A DNA stretch of 64,000 nt from Xenorhabdus mauleonii (lineage in GTDB: Bacteria; Pseudomonadota; Gammaproteobacteria; Enterobacterales; Enterobacteriaceae): contig NZ_FORG01000003.1 in the NCBI RefSeq assembly GCF_900113945.1, positions 186,001 to 250,000 of the forward strand. The letters are read 5' to 3'. Each line of letters opens with the position of its first letter. Within the stretch, counting starts at the first letter, position 1. A model generated the notes under the pieces. That model searched no databases, was not told where the DNA came from, and worked only from the letters and a program-made list of their open reading frames with translations. Positions 23,102 to 32,693 of the stretch are shown in pieces. Position numbers and translations under genes: made by a program.

Positions 23102-23659
23102 CTAACTGACACTCATATATTCAACAGGTATGCTTTTCGTCAGCCAGACTCCGTTATCTGCCTGATGGAATTTGAAGCCCAGTTCATGCATCCGCTGGGC
23201 TGCTATTTTTAGGATAATCACTTTTCCATGACGCTGCCCTACTTTTATGGCTGTTGGTATATCTGCCGATAAGTGCACGTAATGCCGTGTTCCTGCCACA
23301 ATTCCTTGTTTAAAAATAGAGTCTAAAAAGCGGGTCGCTGTGCCGTGGTATAAAATGGCTGGAGGGATTTTCTCTTGGTAACGAATATCTACTTTCTGGG
23401 TTGAATGCCCCTGCACTGCCCTGATACGTTTCTGATCCGCAGAAATAGCAAATCGCTTTTTATCATTGGTATCGACAATTTCTTCAATGAGCGCGTAGTT
23501 CAACTTCTTACCGTGTTTAGCGGCGCATTTGATTAATGCGCCAATATCTGCCCATCCTTCATTATCTAAAACCAAGCCAATAGACTCTGGTTGATGACGC
23601 AATATGTAACTTAAGAACTTACTGGTTTTAGTATCAGCTTGAGCACTGTTTTTATCCAT
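23102..23659 (-). CDS. kptA: RNA 2'-phosphotransferase (KptA/Tpt1)
   Basis: NAD-dependent enzyme (185 residues) that removes an internal 2'-phosphate from RNA via ADP-ribosylation, leaving ADP-ribose 1'',2''-cyclic phosphate. The N-terminal lobe has [14 protein letters not shown] with Arg21-His22; the ART-fold lobe has YHGTATRFL with His105 and the YVHLSAD strand (His129). These match the RNA- and NAD-binding residues of Tpt1. Bacteria have no tRNA-splicing pathway of the yeast type, so its natural substrate is unclear. The rtcB RNA-repair operon only a few kilobases away suggests related RNA-damage chemistry, but they are not in one operon. Confidence 0.95.
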
Positions 23660-24279: not shown

Positions 24280-24522
24280 ATGATATACCGTTTACCATCT
24301 AAATATATTTGGGCATTGGTTTTTATTACCTTTGCCCTCTTCGCTGGGGTAGGAAATATCATTACCCCGTCTATGGTTAGCCTGCTGGTGGCCGGACATG
24401 TTTGGAGTGCCGCTGCTGTTTGCCTGCTTATGGCTGTTTTTTTGCTAAGGGCTGTCTCTCTGCCAAGAGCAATTAAACGGATTACACATGCTAACAATGC
24501 ATCGATTCGGGGGTTAGCATGA
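24280..24522 (+). pseudogene. N-terminal fragment of a BrnQ-type branched-chain amino-acid carrier
   Basis: An 80-residue ORF whose first 60 residues resemble the N-terminus of BrnQ: ALVFITFALFAGVGNIITPS aligns with the BrnQ stretch reading roughly [20 protein letters not shown], followed by MVSLLVAGHVWSAA. BrnQ itself is about 440 residues; only the first two membrane helices remain, ending in a short basic tail. Its TGA stop overlaps the ATG of the NSS transporter (ATGA at 24519-24522), so translation is coupled. No clear ribosome site precedes its own ATG. It may be a truncated relic that now serves as a leader peptide, or a repurposed small membrane subunit. Confidence 0.75.
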
Positions 24523-25832
24523 GTCAACAATGGACGTCCCGTCTGGGGCATGTATTGGCAGCAACCGGCTCTGCCGTTGGCATTGGCGCCATCTGGAAAT
24601 TCTCGTATGTTTCGGCAACAAATGGTGGCGGTGCATTTCTAATTGTATTTTTATTGTTTAGCTTTGTGATTGGTTTGGCAATCCTGCTGGCTGAAAACAT
24701 CCTGGGAAGCAGTACGAGTGAAGTAGCCGTTAACGCATTCAAAAAATTACTCGGTAAGCACTGGGGATGGGTTGGCTTTATAGGCATATTCAGCTCATGG
24801 TGTATCTATAGCTTCTACAGTGTGGTCGGAGGCTGGACTATCGGTTACACGGTGATGGCGGGTACAGGGCAACTGAATATTACAGACAACTCTCAACTGA
24901 CCTCTATTTTCACCAATTTCATCAGCAATCCATTCTGGCCGATAATCGCCCATCTGGCATTTTCAGGATTAACCTGTTTCGTGGTGTTGTCTGGCGTGCA
25001 AAAAGGATTGGAAAAATCAGTTAAGATCATGATGCCAATGTTATTTTTCATCATGATAATGCTGATTATTGTCGGCATCCGTTTACCCGGTTCATCAGAA
25101 GGTCTGAAATTATTCTTATATCCAGATTTCAATAGCTTAACCGGAAAAGGGGTTTTAGATGCTCTGGGATTGGCATTTTTCTCACTGTCCATCGGCTTAG
25201 GGATCCACATTACATACAGCTCCTATTTGCCGGACAACCGAGGTATTGGTAAATCGAGTGTCTGGGTTGTTATCCTCTCCTGTTTGGTTTGTGTATTGGC
25301 TGGCTTGATGATTTTCCCGGCTTTGGCAGCGGCTGGCTTACAGCCCAATGCAGGCCCCGGATTAACATTTATGACAATGCCTATTTATTTCGCCAGCATT
25401 CCAGGCGGATCAATATTAGCGGTCACATTTTTTTTATTGCTGCTCATGGCGGCACTGACTTCCGCGATTTCATTGCTTGAGCACATTGTTGCTTATGTTC
25501 AGACTCGCTTTAAGTGGCAGCGCCGTAAAGCCAGCTTACTTGTCACCGCCTCTATTATGCTAATGGGAATCCCTGTTTCCTTGTCTTTTGGCCCTCTCAG
25601 CCACATTACTTTGGCAGGTAAGACCATCTTTGATCTGCTGGACTTCATTACTTCCAATGTCCTGATGCCATTATTCGGGATTATTATCTGCCTCGTCTTT
25701 GGCTGGTCACGTAAAGTCAATGAACTCATGCCAGATAATATGCCGTCATGGAGCCGCCATTGCTTGCGGTTTGTGTGGAGATATGTCGGGCCTTTGTGTA
25801 TCGGTGTGATTCTGGTACACGGACTTATTTGA
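24519..25832 (+). CDS. Sodium-dependent NSS-family transporter
   Basis: Inner-membrane Na+-coupled symporter (437 residues) of the neurotransmitter:sodium symporter family, related to LeuT and the bacterial YhdH/YocR group. The N-terminal signature LAATGSAVGIGAIWKFSYVS followed by NGGGAFLIVF (about 13-43) contains the unwound TM1 region that binds Na+ and substrate. About eleven hydrophobic segments are visible. The substrate is unknown; amino acids are likely for the family. Its start overlaps the stop of the BrnQ-like fragment by 4 bp. A strong terminator follows. Confidence 0.92.
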   Translation: MSQQWTSRLGHVLAATGSAVGIGAIWKFSYVSATNGGGAFLIVFLLFSFVIGLAILLAENILGSSTSEVAVNAFKKLLGKHWGWVGFIGIFSSWCIYSFYSVVGGWTIGYTVMAGTGQLNITDNSQLTSIFTNFISNPFWPIIAHLAFSGLTCFVVLSGVQKGLEKSVKIMMPMLFFIMIMLIIVGIRLPGSSEGLKLFLYPDFNSLTGKGVLDALGLAFFSLSIGLGIHITYSSYLPDNRGIGKSSVWVVILSCLVCVLAGLMIFPALAAAGLQPNAGPGLTFMTMPIYFASIPGGSILAVTFFLLLLMAALTSAISLLEHIVAYVQTRFKWQRRKASLLVTASIMLMGIPVSLSFGPLSHITLAGKTIFDLLDFITSNVLMPLFGIIICLVFGWSRKVNELMPDNMPSWSRHCLRFVWRYVGPLCIGVILVHGLI

Positions 25833-25964: not shown

Positions 25965-26783
25965 TTAGCCGTTCATGACCCACCGCTTTAAATAACTGTC
26001 CAATAGCTCAGAACTGCGTTCACGCTGATCGTGCAGTTCACAACGCGCCAGTGTTTCATCCAATTCCGATTCAATAAAAGCATGAACCTTCAATTTACGC
26101 GAACCATATTCTGACTCATTCGCCGCCCGCTTAACCCGCAGCAGCTCCTCAATCTCCATTTTTAGTTGCGGATCATCCACGGTTCCGGCGACCAACGTTT
26201 CAAAATCTATCGGTGGTGCCCCCTTGCCCATTTCAATCCAGCGAACAGCAAGCAAGGGGCGCAACACGTAAAAATATTTTTTTAACCGGATGTCATCACC
26301 TTGCAAGTAGCCCTGAAAGTTCTTTTTCGCCATTGAAAGATAGTGATAGCGTGCTTTTATATCCGAAAAGAAGTGCGGCACCATCGTTTTCAGCCCGTTG
26401 GTTGCAGCCGGATCAGCATGATAAATGATGGGGGAATCCAGCCATTCCATTAAGGTCGGGTTTGCCTGCTTCATCAGTTTTAACGCCTTGCGCAGTTCCC
26501 AGCCACTGATATCCAATTCATCGCTGATCGGCAGTTCGATGACATCCCGTCCCTCTTCTACCTGCAAATACCAATCCACGGGGTGAACGTAAATAAACCG
26601 GACATCATAGTCACTGTCCGGTGAGGCAAAGCCCCACCCACGGCTGCCGGATTCACAGGCATACAGTATCCGCACGCCATACTTTTTTTCTATATCAATC
26701 AATTCTTGGCTGATGCGAGCCCGCATGGCCGAGCTGACAGCACCGTCTTCTGGATCCAATTCCATTTCTGCGTCTAATTTCAT
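25965..26783 (-). CDS. RtcB-associated nucleotidyltransferase
   Basis: Protein of 272 residues in the DNA polymerase beta-type nucleotidyltransferase superfamily. The catalytic pattern is ESGSRGWGFASPDSDYDVRF (about 44-63): the G-S turn followed by the metal-binding D-x-D. Most of the remainder is helical. This family is often encoded beside rtcB; its chemistry is not established, but transfer of nucleotides to RNA ends is a reasonable guess. It begins 34 bp after the rtcB stop, so it is the third gene of the sigma-54-driven slipin-rtcB operon. Confidence 0.85.
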   Translation of the reverse strand: MKLDAEMELDPEDGAVSSAMRARISQELIDIEKKYGVRILYACESGSRGWGFASPDSDYDVRFIYVHPVDWYLQVEEGRDVIELPISDELDISGWELRKALKLMKQANPTLMEWLDSPIIYHADPAATNGLKTMVPHFFSDIKARYHYLSMAKKNFQGYLQGDDIRLKKYFYVLRPLLAVRWIEMGKGAPPIDFETLVAGTVDDPQLKMEIEELLRVKRAANESEYGSRKLKVHAFIESELDETLARCELHDQRERSSELLDSYLKRWVMNG

Positions 26784-26816: not shown

Positions 26817-28058
26817 CTAACCTTTTACACACACCACTTGACGCAAGGTATGCACGATTTCCACCAGCGAAGACTGCGCTTGCATCACAGCGTCGATATC
26901 TTTATAAGCCATCGGGATTTCATCGATGACATCACTGTCTTTACGACATTCCACATGCGCCGTCGCACGTTTTTGGTCACTGATTGTGAAACGTTTTTTC
27001 GCTTCAGTACGGCTCATCACACGGCCTGCGCCATGACTGCACGAACAGAAACTTTCTTCGTTACCCAGCCCACGGACGATATAACTTTTCGCCCCCATTG
27101 ACCCCGGGATAATTCCCATTTGGCCTTTGCGGGCCGATACCGCGCCTTTGCGTGTTACCAAAACGTCTTCACCATAATGCTGTTCACGCTGCACATAGTT
27201 ATGATGACAATTCACGGCTTCCTGCTGTGTTGTGAAAGGTTTTGGGATCTCGCGTGACAACGCTTCAAGCACGCGATGCATCATCACCTCTCGGTTCTGG
27301 CGAGCATAATCCTGTGCCCAGCCGACCGCTTCCATATAATCATCAAAATAACGGCTTCCTTCCTCGAAATACGCCAAATCGCGATCAGGCAAGTTAGCCA
27401 TATGCTGCTGCATATCTTTCTGTGCCAATGTGATAAACAAATTACCAATCGCATTCCCCACTCCACGGGAACCGCTATGCAACATCACCCAGACGCGATC
27501 GGCCTCATCAAGACATAACTCGATAAAATGGTTTCCCGTTCCCAGCGTCCCCAGATGATTATGGTTATTGGTATTTAACAGCTTAGGATATTTATCGCTT
27601 ATACGTTTAAAACCATCTGCCAATGTTCCCCAGTGTTGATCCACAATCTCCGGCGCTTTATTCCAAGAACCTTTATCACGGCCGCCACGATTTACGGTAC
27701 GCCCGTGCGGTACTGCGGCTTCAATGGCATGGCGAATATTCAGCAGGCTATCCGGTAAATCAGATGCCACCAGCGAAGTACGCACGGCAATCATTCCGCA
27801 ACCAATATCGACGCCAACTGCCGCCGGAATAATGGCGCCGCGTGTTGGGATCACACTCCCGATGGTAGAACCTTTACCGACATGGACATCCGGCATGACG
27901 GCAAGATGCTTAAAAACAAACGGCATTTTGGCCGTATTCTGCAATTGAATAATCGCTTTGGGATCAACGGGAACGCCGTTTGTCCACATTTTTACCGGCG
28001 TACCATTCTCTTGCTGCAATAAGTGATAAGCGTTGGTTTTCATCTCTGTCGTTGTCAT
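26817..28058 (-). CDS. rtcB: RNA-splicing ligase RtcB
   Basis: GTP- and Mn-dependent RNA ligase (413 residues) that joins 2',3'-cyclic-phosphate (or 3'-phosphate) ends to 5'-OH ends. It is similar to E. coli RtcB over its whole length. Metal ligands are visible: DIGCGM with Asp84 and Cys87, NCHHNYV, and CSCSHGAGR, whose His (about residue 342) becomes guanylylated. The ATG overlaps the slipin stop (ATGA) and has AAAGGAG upstream, so translation is coupled. The N-terminus is about nine residues longer than in E. coli. No rtcA (RNA cyclase) gene is present in this operon; a slipin and a nucleotidyltransferase take its place. Confidence 0.97.
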   Translation of the reverse strand: MTTTEMKTNAYHLLQQENGTPVKMWTNGVPVDPKAIIQLQNTAKMPFVFKHLAVMPDVHVGKGSTIGSVIPTRGAIIPAAVGVDIGCGMIAVRTSLVASDLPDSLLNIRHAIEAAVPHGRTVNRGGRDKGSWNKAPEIVDQHWGTLADGFKRISDKYPKLLNTNNHNHLGTLGTGNHFIELCLDEADRVWVMLHSGSRGVGNAIGNLFITLAQKDMQQHMANLPDRDLAYFEEGSRYFDDYMEAVGWAQDYARQNREVMMHRVLEALSREIPKPFTTQQEAVNCHHNYVQREQHYGEDVLVTRKGAVSARKGQMGIIPGSMGAKSYIVRGLGNEESFCSCSHGAGRVMSRTEAKKRFTISDQKRATAHVECRKDSDVIDEIPMAYKDIDAVMQAQSSLVEIVHTLRQVVCVKG

Positions 28059-29632
28059 TTTTGTTCTCCTTTAATGTGTACCAATCCGTTTAGAACCTGA
28101 TCTAAACCGCCATATACCGAAATTTGATTAATACGCTCCGCAATACTTTCCAATGTTTCCAATTCCTTTAACCGTAAGGCGATGGGATTGTTTTCCATCA
28201 CTTTCGCGGTATTCAGCAGAGAGCGTGTCGCCGCTGTTTCTTCCCGACGCCGGATCACATTCGCCTGCGCGGATTTTTCCGCTTCAACAACCTGCGATAA
28301 AATGGCTTTCATATCGCCGGGCAAAATAATGTCTTTTATCCCCAGAGAGGCCACTTCCAGCCCAAAATTTTGGGTGACTGCCTGGATTTGCTGGCTGACC
28401 AATTCATCAATGACTTGTTTGTTTTCCAACAACTCATCCAACGAACGGGTTCCGACCACTTCACGCAACACGAATTGCAGCTCCCGATACAGATAAGCCA
28501 CAGGCTCACTCAGTTGCCCGTAAGCCATCAAGACGTCGTGATAACGCCAGTTAGCAGATAAATTGATCCGCAGGTTAACTTTGTCACGGGTCAGAATTTC
28601 TTGCCCGCTCACTTCCAGTGACTGTAAACGGGTATCGATAATTTCAACCGCAACGTCATATCCAACCCGCCAATAACCTTTTATCCCAGGTTGCAATAAT
28701 TCCTGCACCCTGCCATCCACTTTTAAAATACCAACATGCCAAGCAGGGATTTGGGCGATCAAAACACTGTCCCACCCTTTCACGCTGTGTTTGCGTGACA
28801 TGGAAGCCGTCAATAAGGAGACCAGCTCGGGTGATACTTCCAGCTCTGACGTTTTAAACTTCGCAATACGGCGCGGGTTACCATTTTTCCAATATAAGCA
28901 ACGCGTCGCAGGGGATAAAATTTCCATCAGAACATCATGTTCATACAACAATCCCATCTCGTTATCGGCAATCTGGATAACGTCACAATACTGCTCTACC
29001 CAATCACGGTGGTGCTCGCGCAAGTATTCTGCCAAATCTTCTTCCAATTGCTCATGCTCGCGGGTATCAATCACTTTAATCTCAACATCATGCCCAAACC
29101 GCCAATAACCTTGCAGGCCCGGTTGCAATAACTGCTTTACGACACCGTTGATCAACAAAACACCGATATGCCATGCCGGAATTTGAACGAACAGTACGTT
29201 TTCCTGCCCTTTCACATTGCGTTGATCCCGGGCTTTGGAAGGTTGAAATAAAGCCAGCAATTCAGGGGATACTGCCTGCTCTGCTGTATTGAGTACTTCA
29301 ATCCGGCGCTGCCCACCATTTTTCCAATACAAACGGCGTGTTGCAGGTGGCAGGATCTCCACCAGTAAATCGTGTTCATACAGCAATCCCATCTCATCTT
29401 CGGCAAGCTGTATATCTTCGCAATACCGTTCCACCCAAGAGGAATAGTACTGACGCAAGTGTTCTGCCAGTTTTGTTTCAATTTCATATCCATCCAGATA
29501 AAACACCGCCACTTCCAGTTTGTTAAACCAATCATAGAAACGGTATTCACCGGCCACCAAAACCTTTTGAAATTCAGACTCTTTTGCCAATAAGCCAATT
29601 TGCCCCTGCAATATTTTTATTTTTTTTATCAT
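28055..29632 (-). CDS. Slipin (SPFH/band-7 protein) with duplicated N-terminal module
   Basis: SPFH-domain protein of the RtcB-linked slipin type, 525 residues from the ATG at 29632 (chosen for the AAGGAAAA upstream). The N-terminal half holds two copies of a module of about 170 residues: each contains a GEYRFYDW/GYWRFGHDVE-like strand, an acidic helix, LLYEHDxLxEIL, PATRxLYWKNG and, at its end, IPAWHxGVL followed by LLQPGLQGYWR. A third partial copy (GIKGYWRVGYDVAVEIIDTR) leads into the SPFH domain (about 325-450) and an Ala/Glu-rich coiled coil. No signal peptide and no strong N-terminal helix. First protein gene after the sigma-54 promoter; its role in RNA repair is unknown. Confidence 0.88.
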   Translation of the reverse strand: MIKKIKILQGQIGLLAKESEFQKVLVAGEYRFYDWFNKLEVAVFYLDGYEIETKLAEHLRQYYSSWVERYCEDIQLAEDEMGLLYEHDLLVEILPPATRRLYWKNGGQRRIEVLNTAEQAVSPELLALFQPSKARDQRNVKGQENVLFVQIPAWHIGVLLINGVVKQLLQPGLQGYWRFGHDVEIKVIDTREHEQLEEDLAEYLREHHRDWVEQYCDVIQIADNEMGLLYEHDVLMEILSPATRCLYWKNGNPRRIAKFKTSELEVSPELVSLLTASMSRKHSVKGWDSVLIAQIPAWHVGILKVDGRVQELLQPGIKGYWRVGYDVAVEIIDTRLQSLEVSGQEILTRDKVNLRINLSANWRYHDVLMAYGQLSEPVAYLYRELQFVLREVVGTRSLDELLENKQVIDELVSQQIQAVTQNFGLEVASLGIKDIILPGDMKAILSQVVEAEKSAQANVIRRREETAATRSLLNTAKVMENNPIALRLKELETLESIAERINQISVYGGLDQVLNGLVHIKGEQK

Positions 29633-29846
29633 TATTATTTTCCTTCTTATCCACTTTATCTTCCTTTGCATCCTGAAAACTGGGCATCAGGGCGAGGCCA
29701 AGGGGGGAATGCACAGGTACCCAACTGCGGTAGCTCAATCTTCTGCCCTTGACTCAGCAACATCTGCCGAGCTTTCAAGATGGTGGTTCTCAACAGGCAA
29801 CCACAGGATTGTATTTCTTTGTTTTACAGCGTTTTTTACCGGGAAT

Positions 29847-29993
29847 GTAAAAGACATTTCATGTTTCGAACTTGGGATTCGAACCCAACTCGACCATTGT
29901 GTTTACACTGACGGAATACATGCGGCGTAATGGCTCATGCCATCACCCATGCACCGGCTGGATTTTGAATCCATGCTATTTCAGCGTCTTACT
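29847..29993 (-). ncRNA. Candidate tRNA-like RNA in the rtc operon leader
   Basis: Read on the minus strand just after the predicted start of the sigma-54 transcript. In order: a small D-like arm GCT-GAAAT-AGC (29985-29975), a one-base linker, an anticodon-like arm TGGA-TTCAAAA-TCCA (29973-29959) with CAA at the anticodon position, a long variable-type hairpin GTGATGGC-ATGA-GCCATTAC, and a T arm TTGGG-TTCGAAT-CCCAA (29888-29872) whose 7-nt loop is fully canonical. GTAAGAC (29992-29986) can pair with GTCTTTTAC (29855-29847) to close the structure. A normal acceptor stem and CCA end are absent, so it is not a working tRNA. Salmonella places tRNA-like Y RNAs at the corresponding spot in its rtcBA operon. 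Identity is inferred. Confidence 0.6.
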
Positions 29994-30002
29994 CCCTTGT
30001 TA

Positions 30003-30020
30003 TTGCCAATTACGTGCCAA
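30003..30020 (-). promoter_or_regulatory. Sigma-54 promoter of the slipin-rtcB operon
   Basis: Minus strand TTGGCACGTAATTGGCAA: the -24 element TTGGCACG and a -12 GC (TGGC for the usual TTGC) at exactly the required 12-bp spacing. Predicted start of transcription is near 29993. The sigma-54 activator gene rtcR is divergent next to it. Confidence 0.85.
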
Positions 30021-30170
30021 CTTTGGAAAAAAACAGGAATATTTTTTATCGCATTGAAATATAACAATTTTTACTTAAAGATATTTTTAGTGATTGTTTT
30101 TACAGCGCAATTTTTTTATCTTCCTATATCATTGTTTATAAATTTAGATAAACGAAACACAAGAAAGACA

Positions 30171-31763
30171 ATGAAACGCAGAGTTGCTATTGGAATTTTA
30201 GGCACCAAATTAGACAGGCGTGGCAAGAAAGCCAATCGATGGACAAAATGGCGGCCAACCGTCGGAATGTGCCAACAGCCCGAATTGCCGATTGATAGGC
30301 TGGAATTGCTTTACCAATCCAATGATTCTGTTCTTGCCGGGAGGGTTAAAGAGGATATAGAACAGGTTTCACCGCAGACAAAAGTGGTGCTGAATGAAAT
30401 CCAACTCGAAGATCCGTGGGATTTTGAAGAGGTTTATACGGCATTGCTGGATTTTGCCGTTCGCTATCCTTTCGATATTGAAAACGAAGAATATCTGGTG
30501 CATATCACAACCGGTACCCATGTCGCGCAAATTTGCTGGTTTTTGCTGACCGAAGCCCGTTACCTGCCCGCCCAGTTGCTCCAAACTTCTCCCAACAATG
30601 AAGGTGAAGAAAGCCATCCTGAAGGCGTTTGCACCATTATTGATTTAGATCTCAGCCGCTACACAACCCTGACCAGCCGCTTTTTGCATGAGCAGCAGGA
30701 ACAAGTGGCATTTTTGAAATCAGGTATCGCTACCCGCAACGCCAACTTTAACCGCCTGATAGATCAAGTTGAACGTGTCGCCTTGCGCTCCTCTGCCCCT
30801 ATGTTGCTGACTGGGCCAACTGGCGCGGGGAAATCCTTTCTTGCCCGCCGAATCTATCAGCTACGGCAATCACGCCATTTAATCAAAGGGCGATTTGTTG
30901 AAGTCAACTGCGCAACGCTGCGTGGTGACAATGCAATGTCTACGCTGTTTGGTCACATTAAGGGCGCATTTACAGGAGCGATCCAGCCACGCAATGGTTT
31001 GTTGCGTGAAGCCAATGGCGGCATTTTATTTCTCGACGAAGTGGCAGAGCTGGGATTGGATGAACAAGCCATGCTGCTGAAAGCCATCGAGGAAAAAAGC
31101 TTTCTGCCTTATGGTTCAGATAAAGAAGTCCACAGTGATTTCCAATTGATTGCCGGCACACACCGTGACCTGAACGACTGGGTGGCTCAGGGAAAATTCC
31201 GCGAAGACTTATACGCACGCATCAATATGTGGACATATCAATTGCCCGGCCTGGCACAACGCCGTGAAGATATTGAGCCAAACATTGATTATGAACTCGC
31301 CCGCTATGCCCAAGTGCAACAAACACAAGTTCGCTTTGATAAAGAAGCACGGCAACTTTATCTGCATTTTGCCTGTTCAGAGCAAGCCCAATGGCGGGGA
31401 AATTTTCGTGAACTCAGTGCATCCGTGACTCGGATGGCGACGTTTGCCGAAAATGGACGTATCAACCAGCAAGTAGTCACAGAAGAGATCACACGGCTCA
31501 AGCAAAATTGGGGCAAAGAAGAGCCTTTCTCTCTCTTGTCAAACTCCCTCTTGCCAAACCATTTGCCGGAAATCGATCTGTTTGACCGCCAGCAATTAGA
31601 AACTGTGATTAAAGTTTGCCGTAGCGCCAACAGCTTATCAGAGGCGGGCCGCAAACTATTTTCCGTTTCTCGCCAACATAAAAAACAGCCCAATGATGCC
31701 GATAGATTACGCAAGTATCTGGCCCGATTCGGCCTGGATTGGGAAAGCATCCAATGTCATTAG
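30171..31763 (+). CDS. rtcR: Sigma-54-dependent transcription activator RtcR
   Basis: Activator of the RNA-repair operon, 530 residues from the ATG at 30171, matching E. coli RtcR in length; an upstream in-frame start would add about 78 residues overlapping the operon promoter. The N-terminal RtcR/CARF-like sensor domain (about 1-180, VAIGILGTKLDRRGKKANRW, EDYLVHITTGTHVAQICWFL-like) is known to respond to RNA ends with cyclic phosphates. The AAA+ domain has Walker A GPTGAGKS, GAFTGA for contact with sigma-54, and LFLDEVAEL. A C-terminal helix-turn-helix follows. It is divergent from slipin-rtcB and followed 12 bp later by rbn. Confidence 0.96.
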   Translation: MKRRVAIGILGTKLDRRGKKANRWTKWRPTVGMCQQPELPIDRLELLYQSNDSVLAGRVKEDIEQVSPQTKVVLNEIQLEDPWDFEEVYTALLDFAVRYPFDIENEEYLVHITTGTHVAQICWFLLTEARYLPAQLLQTSPNNEGEESHPEGVCTIIDLDLSRYTTLTSRFLHEQQEQVAFLKSGIATRNANFNRLIDQVERVALRSSAPMLLTGPTGAGKSFLARRIYQLRQSRHLIKGRFVEVNCATLRGDNAMSTLFGHIKGAFTGAIQPRNGLLREANGGILFLDEVAELGLDEQAMLLKAIEEKSFLPYGSDKEVHSDFQLIAGTHRDLNDWVAQGKFREDLYARINMWTYQLPGLAQRREDIEPNIDYELARYAQVQQTQVRFDKEARQLYLHFACSEQAQWRGNFRELSASVTRMATFAENGRINQQVVTEEITRLKQNWGKEEPFSLLSNSLLPNHLPEIDLFDRQQLETVIKVCRSANSLSEAGRKLFSVSRQHKKQPNDADRLRKYLARFGLDWESIQCH

Positions 31764-31775
31764 GAGAGCAATAGC

Positions 31776-32693
31776 ATGGAACTGAAATTTTTGGGCACCA
31801 GCGCGGGGATTCCCACCAAAGAGCGCAATGTCACCAGCCTGATCCTCGATTTACAAGGTGTCCGCAATGCACTGTGGATGTTTGATTGCGGTGAGGGGAC
31901 GCAGCATCAGATCCTCCATTCCCCTGTCAAGATATCCAAACTGGAGAAGATTTTTATCACTCACCTGCATGGGGATCATATCTTTGGTTTACCCGGCTTA
32001 TTGTGCAGCCGCTCGATGGGGGGTTCGACCGATCCGCTCACATTGTATGGCCCAACCGGCATACGCCAATTTGTAGAAACTTCGCTGCAATTGAGCAGCT
32101 CTTTTCTGACCTATCCGCTGGACATTATCGAAGTTCAGCCAGGGCAGTTATTTGATGATGGTGAGTTGAAAATCACGGCCTACGCTTTAAACCATCGCGT
32201 GGAATGTTATGGCTACCGCATTGAAGAGCACGATAAACCCGGTGCGCTGGATGCCCAAAAACTGAACCAGGATGCGATCCCCCGTGGCCCGTGGATGCAG
32301 GCATTAAAACAAGGCGATACCGTCACCTTGGAAGATGGCCGCACCATTTGTGGTAAAGATTATTTAGGAACGCCGATCCGCGGCAAGTCACTGGCTATTT
32401 TCGGAGATACTGAACCGACACCGGAAGCCCTGAAAATGGCCGCCGGAGTTGATGTCATGGTGCACGAAATTACGCTGGAAGATGCGTTTGCGGCGAAAGC
32501 CAATGAACGCGGGCACTCCACCACAAAGCAAGCCGCGACACTCGCGCGTGATGCCAAGGTAAAACATTTTATCGCTACCCATATCAGCGGGCGCTACGGC
32601 GTTGAAGATTGCCCGCGATTATTGGCTGAATGTCGGGAAATCTTCCCCAATACCGATCTGGCCGCAGATTTTGCCGTGTTTGCAGTGAAATAA
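31776..32693 (+). CDS. rbn: Ribonuclease BN / RNase Z
   Basis: Zinc-dependent metallo-beta-lactamase-fold nuclease (305 residues, same as E. coli Rbn/ElaC) that processes tRNA 3' ends. The zinc motif is His63-Leu-His65-Gly-Asp67-His68 ([10 protein letters not shown]). Further metal ligands appear in LNHRVE, FGDTEPT and [13 protein letters not shown] precedes the ATG, and only 12 bp separate it from rtcR, so the two are probably cotranscribed. That links tRNA 3' processing with the RNA-repair regulator. Confidence 0.95.

Follow-up and report, generated by a model that had tools for sequence, protein, structure and literature searches.

A covarying three-way-junction RNA at the predicted 5' end of the slipin-rtcB-rlaP transcript of Xenorhabdus mauleonii

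The window analysed here is a stretch of 64,000 nucleotides from Xenorhabdus mauleonii (NZ_FORG01000003.1, positions 186,001 to 250,000), and the element in question is the leader between the divergent gene rtcR and the minus-strand RNA-repair genes slipin-rtcB-rlaP. This leader is best explained as the start of the transcript that RtcR and sigma-54 would produce from slipin-rtcB-rlaP; its structure, its position at the promoter motif and its tight linkage to the slipin gene are shown. Its core is a three-way junction, M1, which is followed by a reduced transfer RNA (tRNA)-like part, M2, and the leader RNA probably works together with the slipin protein. A sequence-only reading of the same DNA had described a tRNA-like RNA whose several arms belong together. 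A structured leader with a tRNA-like part was indeed found, but a single tRNA fold uniting all arms was excluded by the covarying three-way junction and by the T arm, which is a separate module. The parts of the core are as follows.

29894..29992, minus strand: M1, the three-way-junction core of the leader RNA (covariation, model matches).
29906..29986, minus strand: closing stem P1 of M1, 29986-29981 with 29911-29906 (covariation).
29957..29976, minus strand: hairpin P2 of M1, 29976-29970 with 29962-29957, loop UUCAAAA (covariation).
29912..29956, minus strand: long hairpin P3 of M1, 29956-29948 with 29922-29912 and 29946-29939 with 29934-29925 (covariation).

P3 carries a two-base bulge, and the outer GUC/GAC helix of the relatives corresponds to 29992-29990 with 29901-29899 in the window, where the last pair is non-standard. 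The predicted fold of 29994-29845 has a z score of -3.1, with 1 of 200 shuffles equally stable. This fold reassigns the arms named by the sequence-only reading. The bases of its D-like arm (GCU-GAAAUA-GC) belong to P1 and the base of P2. The D-like arm itself is not supported. Its anticodon-like arm is the hairpin P2, whose loop differs in length and letters among relatives, so that the CAA triplet is not conserved. Its variable-type hairpin is P3.

A lack of compensatory changes in homologous leaders had been named in advance as a result that would speak against the RNA; in an alignment of 44 sequences (A8), such changes occur in 29 of the 32 M1 pairs. Paired cells make up 95.2% of A8, compared with a mean of 70.6% after shuffling and at most 45.2% when the alignment is slid, and none of 500 shuffles attains any of five measures. 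Of the 71 loci in which M1 was matched (33 found by slipin first and 38 by the RNA first, with three genomes in both), 44 were chosen by eye for A8, the loci dropped being mostly near-identical or weak ones. A3 and A8 are model-based and so biased towards the structure of the model; the unfitted check is A2, a plain, structure-free MAFFT alignment of eight enterobacterial leaders, in which 14 of the 32 pairs show double changes. When enteric leaders were aligned together with the others by MAFFT (A1), the outer stem came out misaligned, and A3 and A8 took the place of that alignment. Unconstrained folding of the 44 sequences recovered 949 of the 1330 pairs; in 28 of the sequences the share recovered was 70% or more. 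An origin in chance hairpins or in a decayed, functionless tRNA gene would fit the shrinkage of the window's tRNA-like part, but it is refuted for M1 by the 29 covarying pairs and also faces the 74-fold enrichment of T arms in leaders described below, which leaves it hardly credible.

Relatives were collected through slipin and then through the RNA itself. A slipin scan of genome contigs gave 17 loci, to which 1 of 1,621 matching E. coli records and 4 of 7 plasmid-collection records were added, and a slipin profile search at an expectation value (E) of 1e-60 found a match in 23 of 398 genomes from the phylum, counting the own genome. The slipin-first set comprises 43 loci including the window, after the incomplete L012 and L046 were left out; the slipin scan places three Xenorhabdus loci, at 82-83% identity, nearest to the window. 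A covariance model built on the eight enterobacterial leaders (R1) matched 9 of 15 further sources, all in the leader, the weakest being L023 at E 0.28. A second model (R2), trained on 17 leaders (the eight of R1 and its nine matches), detected M1 in 16 of the 28 remaining sources (E <=0.05), in each case within the leader and on the slipin strand; its three other matches among these sources have E values of 0.47 to 1.3. M1 was thus detected in 33 of the 43 slipin loci. Under strict filters R1 found only its own locus in 369 genomes, R2 performing better in three families. A whole-leader DNA search of 149 genomes returned the leader itself and one 21-nucleotide match taken as chance, and Rfam 15 at its gathering score gave no match of any kind in the window and no M1 match in the other scanned sources.

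The linkage to slipin appears when R2 is used as the sole query. M1 was matched in 18 of 198 genomes of the own family, in 7 of 120 in a presumably Burkholderia-like family (that of G1066) and in 14 of 148 in a presumably Pseudomonas-like one (that of G843). These searches gave 38 RNA-first loci besides the window, and in 37 of them slipin is matched downstream in the same orientation; the exception, L073, is a weak match (E 6e-4) with neither slipin nor sigma-54 motif. The test falls short of full independence, because the training set of R2 consisted of slipin loci and the presence of slipin guided the choice of two of the three centre genomes; three of the 38 loci (L050, L081, L084) are in genomes previously found via slipin. 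The genes and the promoter of the window are listed here.

30004..30019, minus strand: sigma-54 promoter motif TGGCACGTAATTGGCA, predicted +1 near 29993.
30171..31763, plus strand: rtcR, sigma-54 activator (Pfam RtcR and Sigma54_activat), divergent from slipin.
28055..29671, minus strand: slipin (SPFH, Pfam Band_7), true start probably near 29632 by comparison with relatives.
26817..28058, minus strand: rtcB RNA ligase (Pfam RtcB).
25965..26783, minus strand: RlaP nucleotidyltransferase, RNA repair pathway (Pfam PF10127).

The sigma-54 +1 is placed by the usual 12-nucleotide rule, and the 5' end of M1 at 29992 coincides with it, in agreement with the sequence-only reading, which had the RNA begin near this start. 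A sigma-54 motif precedes the M1 match by 11-21 nucleotides in all 37 slipin-bearing RNA-first loci, the distance being 11 nucleotides in 15 of 16 own-family loci. Among 17 scanned loci, rtcR lies divergent beside slipin in 14; L019 has it some 2 kb upstream, beyond rtcB, and it was not seen within the stretch examined in L012 and L018.

The gene that the RNA tracks is slipin, not rtcB. The E. coli locus L020 has the leader ahead of slipin-RlaP and shows neither rtcB nor rtcR within the fetched 12.6 kb; in Citrobacter (L021) the leader also precedes slipin-RlaP, again with no rtcB in the part fetched. Because the RNA follows slipin without rtcB in both loci, and without rtcR in L020, its likeliest partner is the slipin protein or the slipin mRNA. 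Among slipins of another class of the phylum that have no rtcB match within 1.5 kb, T arms occur in 7 of 7 complete loci and M1 in three. Two further observations were made on these groups. Slipin DNA matches were present in 1,621 of 5,426 E. coli genomes, and the one inspected (L020) has slipin-RlaP with sigma-54 motif and leader, without an adjacent rtcR. Upstream tRNA-like units are found in L041-L048 (also L088, L089) although no rtcB match lies within 1.5 kb of slipin, and in two longer stretches of that group that were listed, the frames flanking slipin looked housekeeping-like by eye.

These data bear on the possibility that the leader acts in cis, as a structured 5' untranslated region controlling slipin-rtcB expression. 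In one variant, cuts by tRNA-directed nucleases or processing by RNase P or RNase Z would alter mRNA stability or translation, and re-sealing by RtcB could feed back. The order of promoter motif, RNA and slipin on one strand in 37 of 38 RNA-first loci agrees with this, as does the lack of any terminator-like site across 29400-30300, where the promoter scan, for sigma-70-type sites, also found nothing. An RNase Z gene, moreover, adjoins rtcR both here and in the Xenorhabdus and Providencia loci that were fetched. Control in cis is a possible explanation, ranked second to the scaffold discussed below and ahead of a decoy.

The tRNA-like part of the window is small.

29866..29893, minus strand: reduced M2, a T-arm minihelix (pattern and predicted fold), with no D or anticodon arm.

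As the sequence-only reading had it, minus-strand positions 29888-29872 form the T arm TTGGG-TTCGAAT-CCCAA, with a five-pair stem and a UUCRANN loop. The minihelix is predicted to be closed by UCGAG (29893-29889) with UUCGA (29870-29866), leaving one bulged base. In the window leader there is no seven-pair acceptor with CCA, no D arm and no anticodon arm, and an acceptor-pairing test shows no acceptor-like helix adjoining the T arm; the absence of a CCA acceptor noted earlier was thus borne out, and ARAGORN calls no tRNA. In X. szentirmaii (L004) the T arm is identical, and a six-pair TCGAAT/ATTCGA stem plus spacer is present that the window does not have.

Five-pair T arms occur within 700 nucleotides upstream of slipin in 38 of the 43 loci, with two or more in 28. 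These 700 nucleotides hold 2.23 such arms per kb and the remainder of the loci, counted on both strands, 0.030 per kb, a 74-fold enrichment. AT-rich T-arm matches upstream of the promoter were taken as chance (the only one of L005 and one of the two of L004). Four-pair versions were seen in L006, L020 and L021, and three T arms in L019 and L036. The leader T arm was not seen by pattern in L005, L007 and L010, from Xenorhabdus hominickii and two Providencia, which lack the T loop and retain M1. In the 16 own-family RNA-first loci (without the window and L073), a T arm of at least four pairs is present in 11 and none was found by pattern in five. Because the T arm is missing in some loci where M1 is present, M1 and not the tRNA mimic is the constant part in the own-family group.

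Fuller tRNA-like units, numbering one to three, are present in relatives outside the enterobacteria, compared with the minihelix of enterobacterial relatives, and several of the fuller modules are called tRNA by Rfam (RF00005) and ARAGORN. The direction of change would be module loss in enterobacterial leaders rather than gain elsewhere. From 79 parsed leader regions (three same-genome repeats and L073 left out), 70 units with both D and T arms were obtained by pattern; 25 of these have a five-pair stem with a seven-base anticodon loop, and U33 is present in 13 of the 25. When the same parser was applied to the 43 distinct true tRNAs of the genome, it accepted 15 units, every one of which has a seven-base loop and U33; its D-arm pattern does not fit another 30 T-arm matches among true tRNAs. 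Some units have tetraloop anticodon arms (GAAA in L022 and L023, GCAA in L011). Mimicry of tRNA shape without decoding is suggested by the odd anticodon arms that most relatives have.

Several features of these units were noted in passing. U36 is found in 12 of the 13 seven-base-loop units with U33 (L013, L024, L030, L034-L036, L041-L043, L045, L047, L048). U36 is a mark of ANN-decoding tRNAs, and the bias may reflect a shared origin or a signal for a modification enzyme. An encoded CCA stands behind the first tRNA-like unit, immediately before the second, in L018, L030, L031, L042, L044 and L045; in 18 of 43 loci a CCA follows the first T arm at a short distance, though not always at an acceptor end. 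The second unit often has an acceptor of 4-6 base pairs only.

Odd anticodon arms in most relatives' units, including the tetraloops, are what would be expected of an uncleavable mimic, and a tRNA-like leader could serve as a decoy that competes for RNases, toxins or RtcR, sparing tRNAs or setting the threshold of the response. In Salmonella, YrlA is proposed to be a competitive inhibitor (PMC7790460). The window, however, has no anticodon arm, so that a decoy for anticodon nucleases is unlikely here, and one leader per mRNA would amount to few molecules against the tRNA pool. A decoy role is accordingly judged improbable.

Other identities were searched for directly. The tRNA model (RF00005) has 70 matches in the genome, none at the leader; it matches nothing in the window, where ARAGORN finds no tRNA or tmRNA (transfer-messenger RNA). 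The proposed derivation from tRNA-Leu is not supported, since the 11 letters shared with tRNA-Leu(CAA), GATTCAAAATC, are near chance level (E 0.074) and the loop is not kept in relatives. The best leader matches to true tRNAs are 13 T-arm letters shared with two tRNA-Ser (E 0.005). Kinship with bacterial Y RNA, also suggested earlier, would account for tRNA-like parts within an rtc operon, and one relative (L083) has a YrlA match of 33.4 bits, below the cut-off of 69, overlapping its tRNA-like unit. But the YrlA model (RF02553) matches true tRNA genes of this genome at that same level, and its six sub-cut-off matches in the genome include none at the leader; the 14 control genomes do not demonstrate the sensitivity of this search, as none passes the cut-off. 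The whole genome has no match to TROVE (Ro60/Rsr), for which 1 of 14 control genomes was positive (Deinobacterium chartae), so the absence of Rsr/Ro from this rtc operon stands; it has no RtcA match either. A YrlA-like RNA is therefore very improbable.

The reading favoured here, with a probability of roughly 0.4, is that M1 docks the RNA on slipin and the tRNA-like part gathers tRNA-handling enzymes or damaged tRNAs. On sensing tRNA halves, RtcR would cause the RNA to be transcribed together with slipin; M1 would then dock the RNA on the oligomer formed by slipin, an SPFH protein, while a tRNA elbow displayed by the tRNA-like part would help to gather tRNA-handling enzymes such as RtcB and RlaP, or damaged tRNAs, at the slipin scaffold. 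Binding, processing and stability of the leader RNA are in this scheme conjectural. Slipin-type genes are linked to RNA repair elsewhere too: the rtc locus of P. aeruginosa contains an SPFH gene (PMC13086221), and a slipin gene rises along with rtcB on deletion of TrcR in Anabaena (PMC10272220).

A number of points weigh against this scaffold. M1 was not detected in 10 of the 43 slipin loci (L017, L019, L033, L034, L036, L038, L041, L042, L044, L045), all ten of which have at least one five-pair T arm. The tRNA-like part, being absent in some relatives, cannot be indispensable in all versions. With U33 in 13 of the 25 seven-base-loop units, some units may decode. Acceptor pairing is only weakly above control (34 of 72 T arms with at least six pairs, control 28%). 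The RNA is invariably a leader before slipin, which fits regulation in cis equally. In E. coli, tRNA fragments bound the CARF domain and not full-length RtcR (PMC9650030).

The class of the window RNA is probably known in outline. The abstract of a 2016 paper by Burroughs and Aravind reportedly describes SPFH/Band-7 modules with a novel tRNA-like molecule. That kind is reported to be a tRNA-like non-coding RNA beside an SPFH/Band-7 gene in an RNA-repair neighbourhood, and the window leader lies directly upstream of the SPFH gene in an RNA-repair operon. It differs in that the window has only a T-arm minihelix, with M1 and the tail module as its main parts. The window RNA may thus be regarded as a reduced variant of this kind, with a strongly supported core outside Rfam 15. 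Among open-licence papers, to the extent of their accessible text, no description of a slipin leader RNA turned up, and the serial reduction of tRNA mimics seems new within the limits of these searches.

Comparison with other systems gives partial likenesses. YrlA shares tRNA mimicry and a place in rtc operons under RtcR (PMC7790460), but the window leader has no match to its model, the genome no TROVE and the partner gene is slipin. The proposed slipin scaffold would resemble the arrangement in which Y RNA tethers Ro to PNPase. The tRNA-like domain of tmRNA has a T arm and no normal anticodon arm. Its model (RF00023) gives a weak match to the T arm only (E 0.94), and the window differs in having no ARAGORN tmRNA call, no full acceptor or CCA, and another context. 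Fuller modules of several relatives pass the tRNA model, whereas the window element fails it and most relatives' anticodon arms are abnormal. A bolder proposal, put forward tentatively, is that M1 is the core of an undescribed RNA class forming a ribonucleoprotein with slipin, to which tandem, mostly non-decoding tRNA mimics are attached as exchangeable parts that were shed stepwise in enterobacteria, leaving Xenorhabdus nearly core-only.

Most work on RNA repair under RtcR has dealt with rtcBA operons, and the slipin version is less explored. Near-complete covariation, a predicted transcript 5' end and a link to slipin across families provide a concrete molecule for experiments, and a graded series, with three tRNA mimics at one end and none at the other, distinguishes the needs of the core from the contribution of mimicry. 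The system could join Ro and Y RNA as a second example of RNA repair in which a protein scaffold is paired with an RNA that mimics tRNA.

The remaining feature of the leader is its tail module.

29696..29770, minus strand: tail module M4, hairpin 29770-29766/29758-29754 plus a longer helix (double changes in 7 of 15 pairs across 9 loci).

The leader also contains small reading frames. The slipin of the window has 538 amino acids, compared with about 375-380 in many relatives, and its N-terminal part is present twice, relatives aligning to two overlapping stretches; the slipin frames of X. vietnamensis (524 amino acids) and X. hominickii (545) are likewise long. An RNase Z gene (31776-32693) directly follows rtcR, so that a tRNA 3'-end enzyme neighbours the tRNA-fragment sensor; besides the window, 5 of 22 loci examined have it beside rtcR, namely the fetched Xenorhabdus and Providencia loci (L003, L004, L005, L007, L010). 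A KptA/Tpt1 gene (23102-23659) lies some way beyond slipin-rtcB-rlaP, with a transporter-like frame on the opposite strand (24519-25832) intervening, and in L004 and L005 KptA is found closely behind rlaP.
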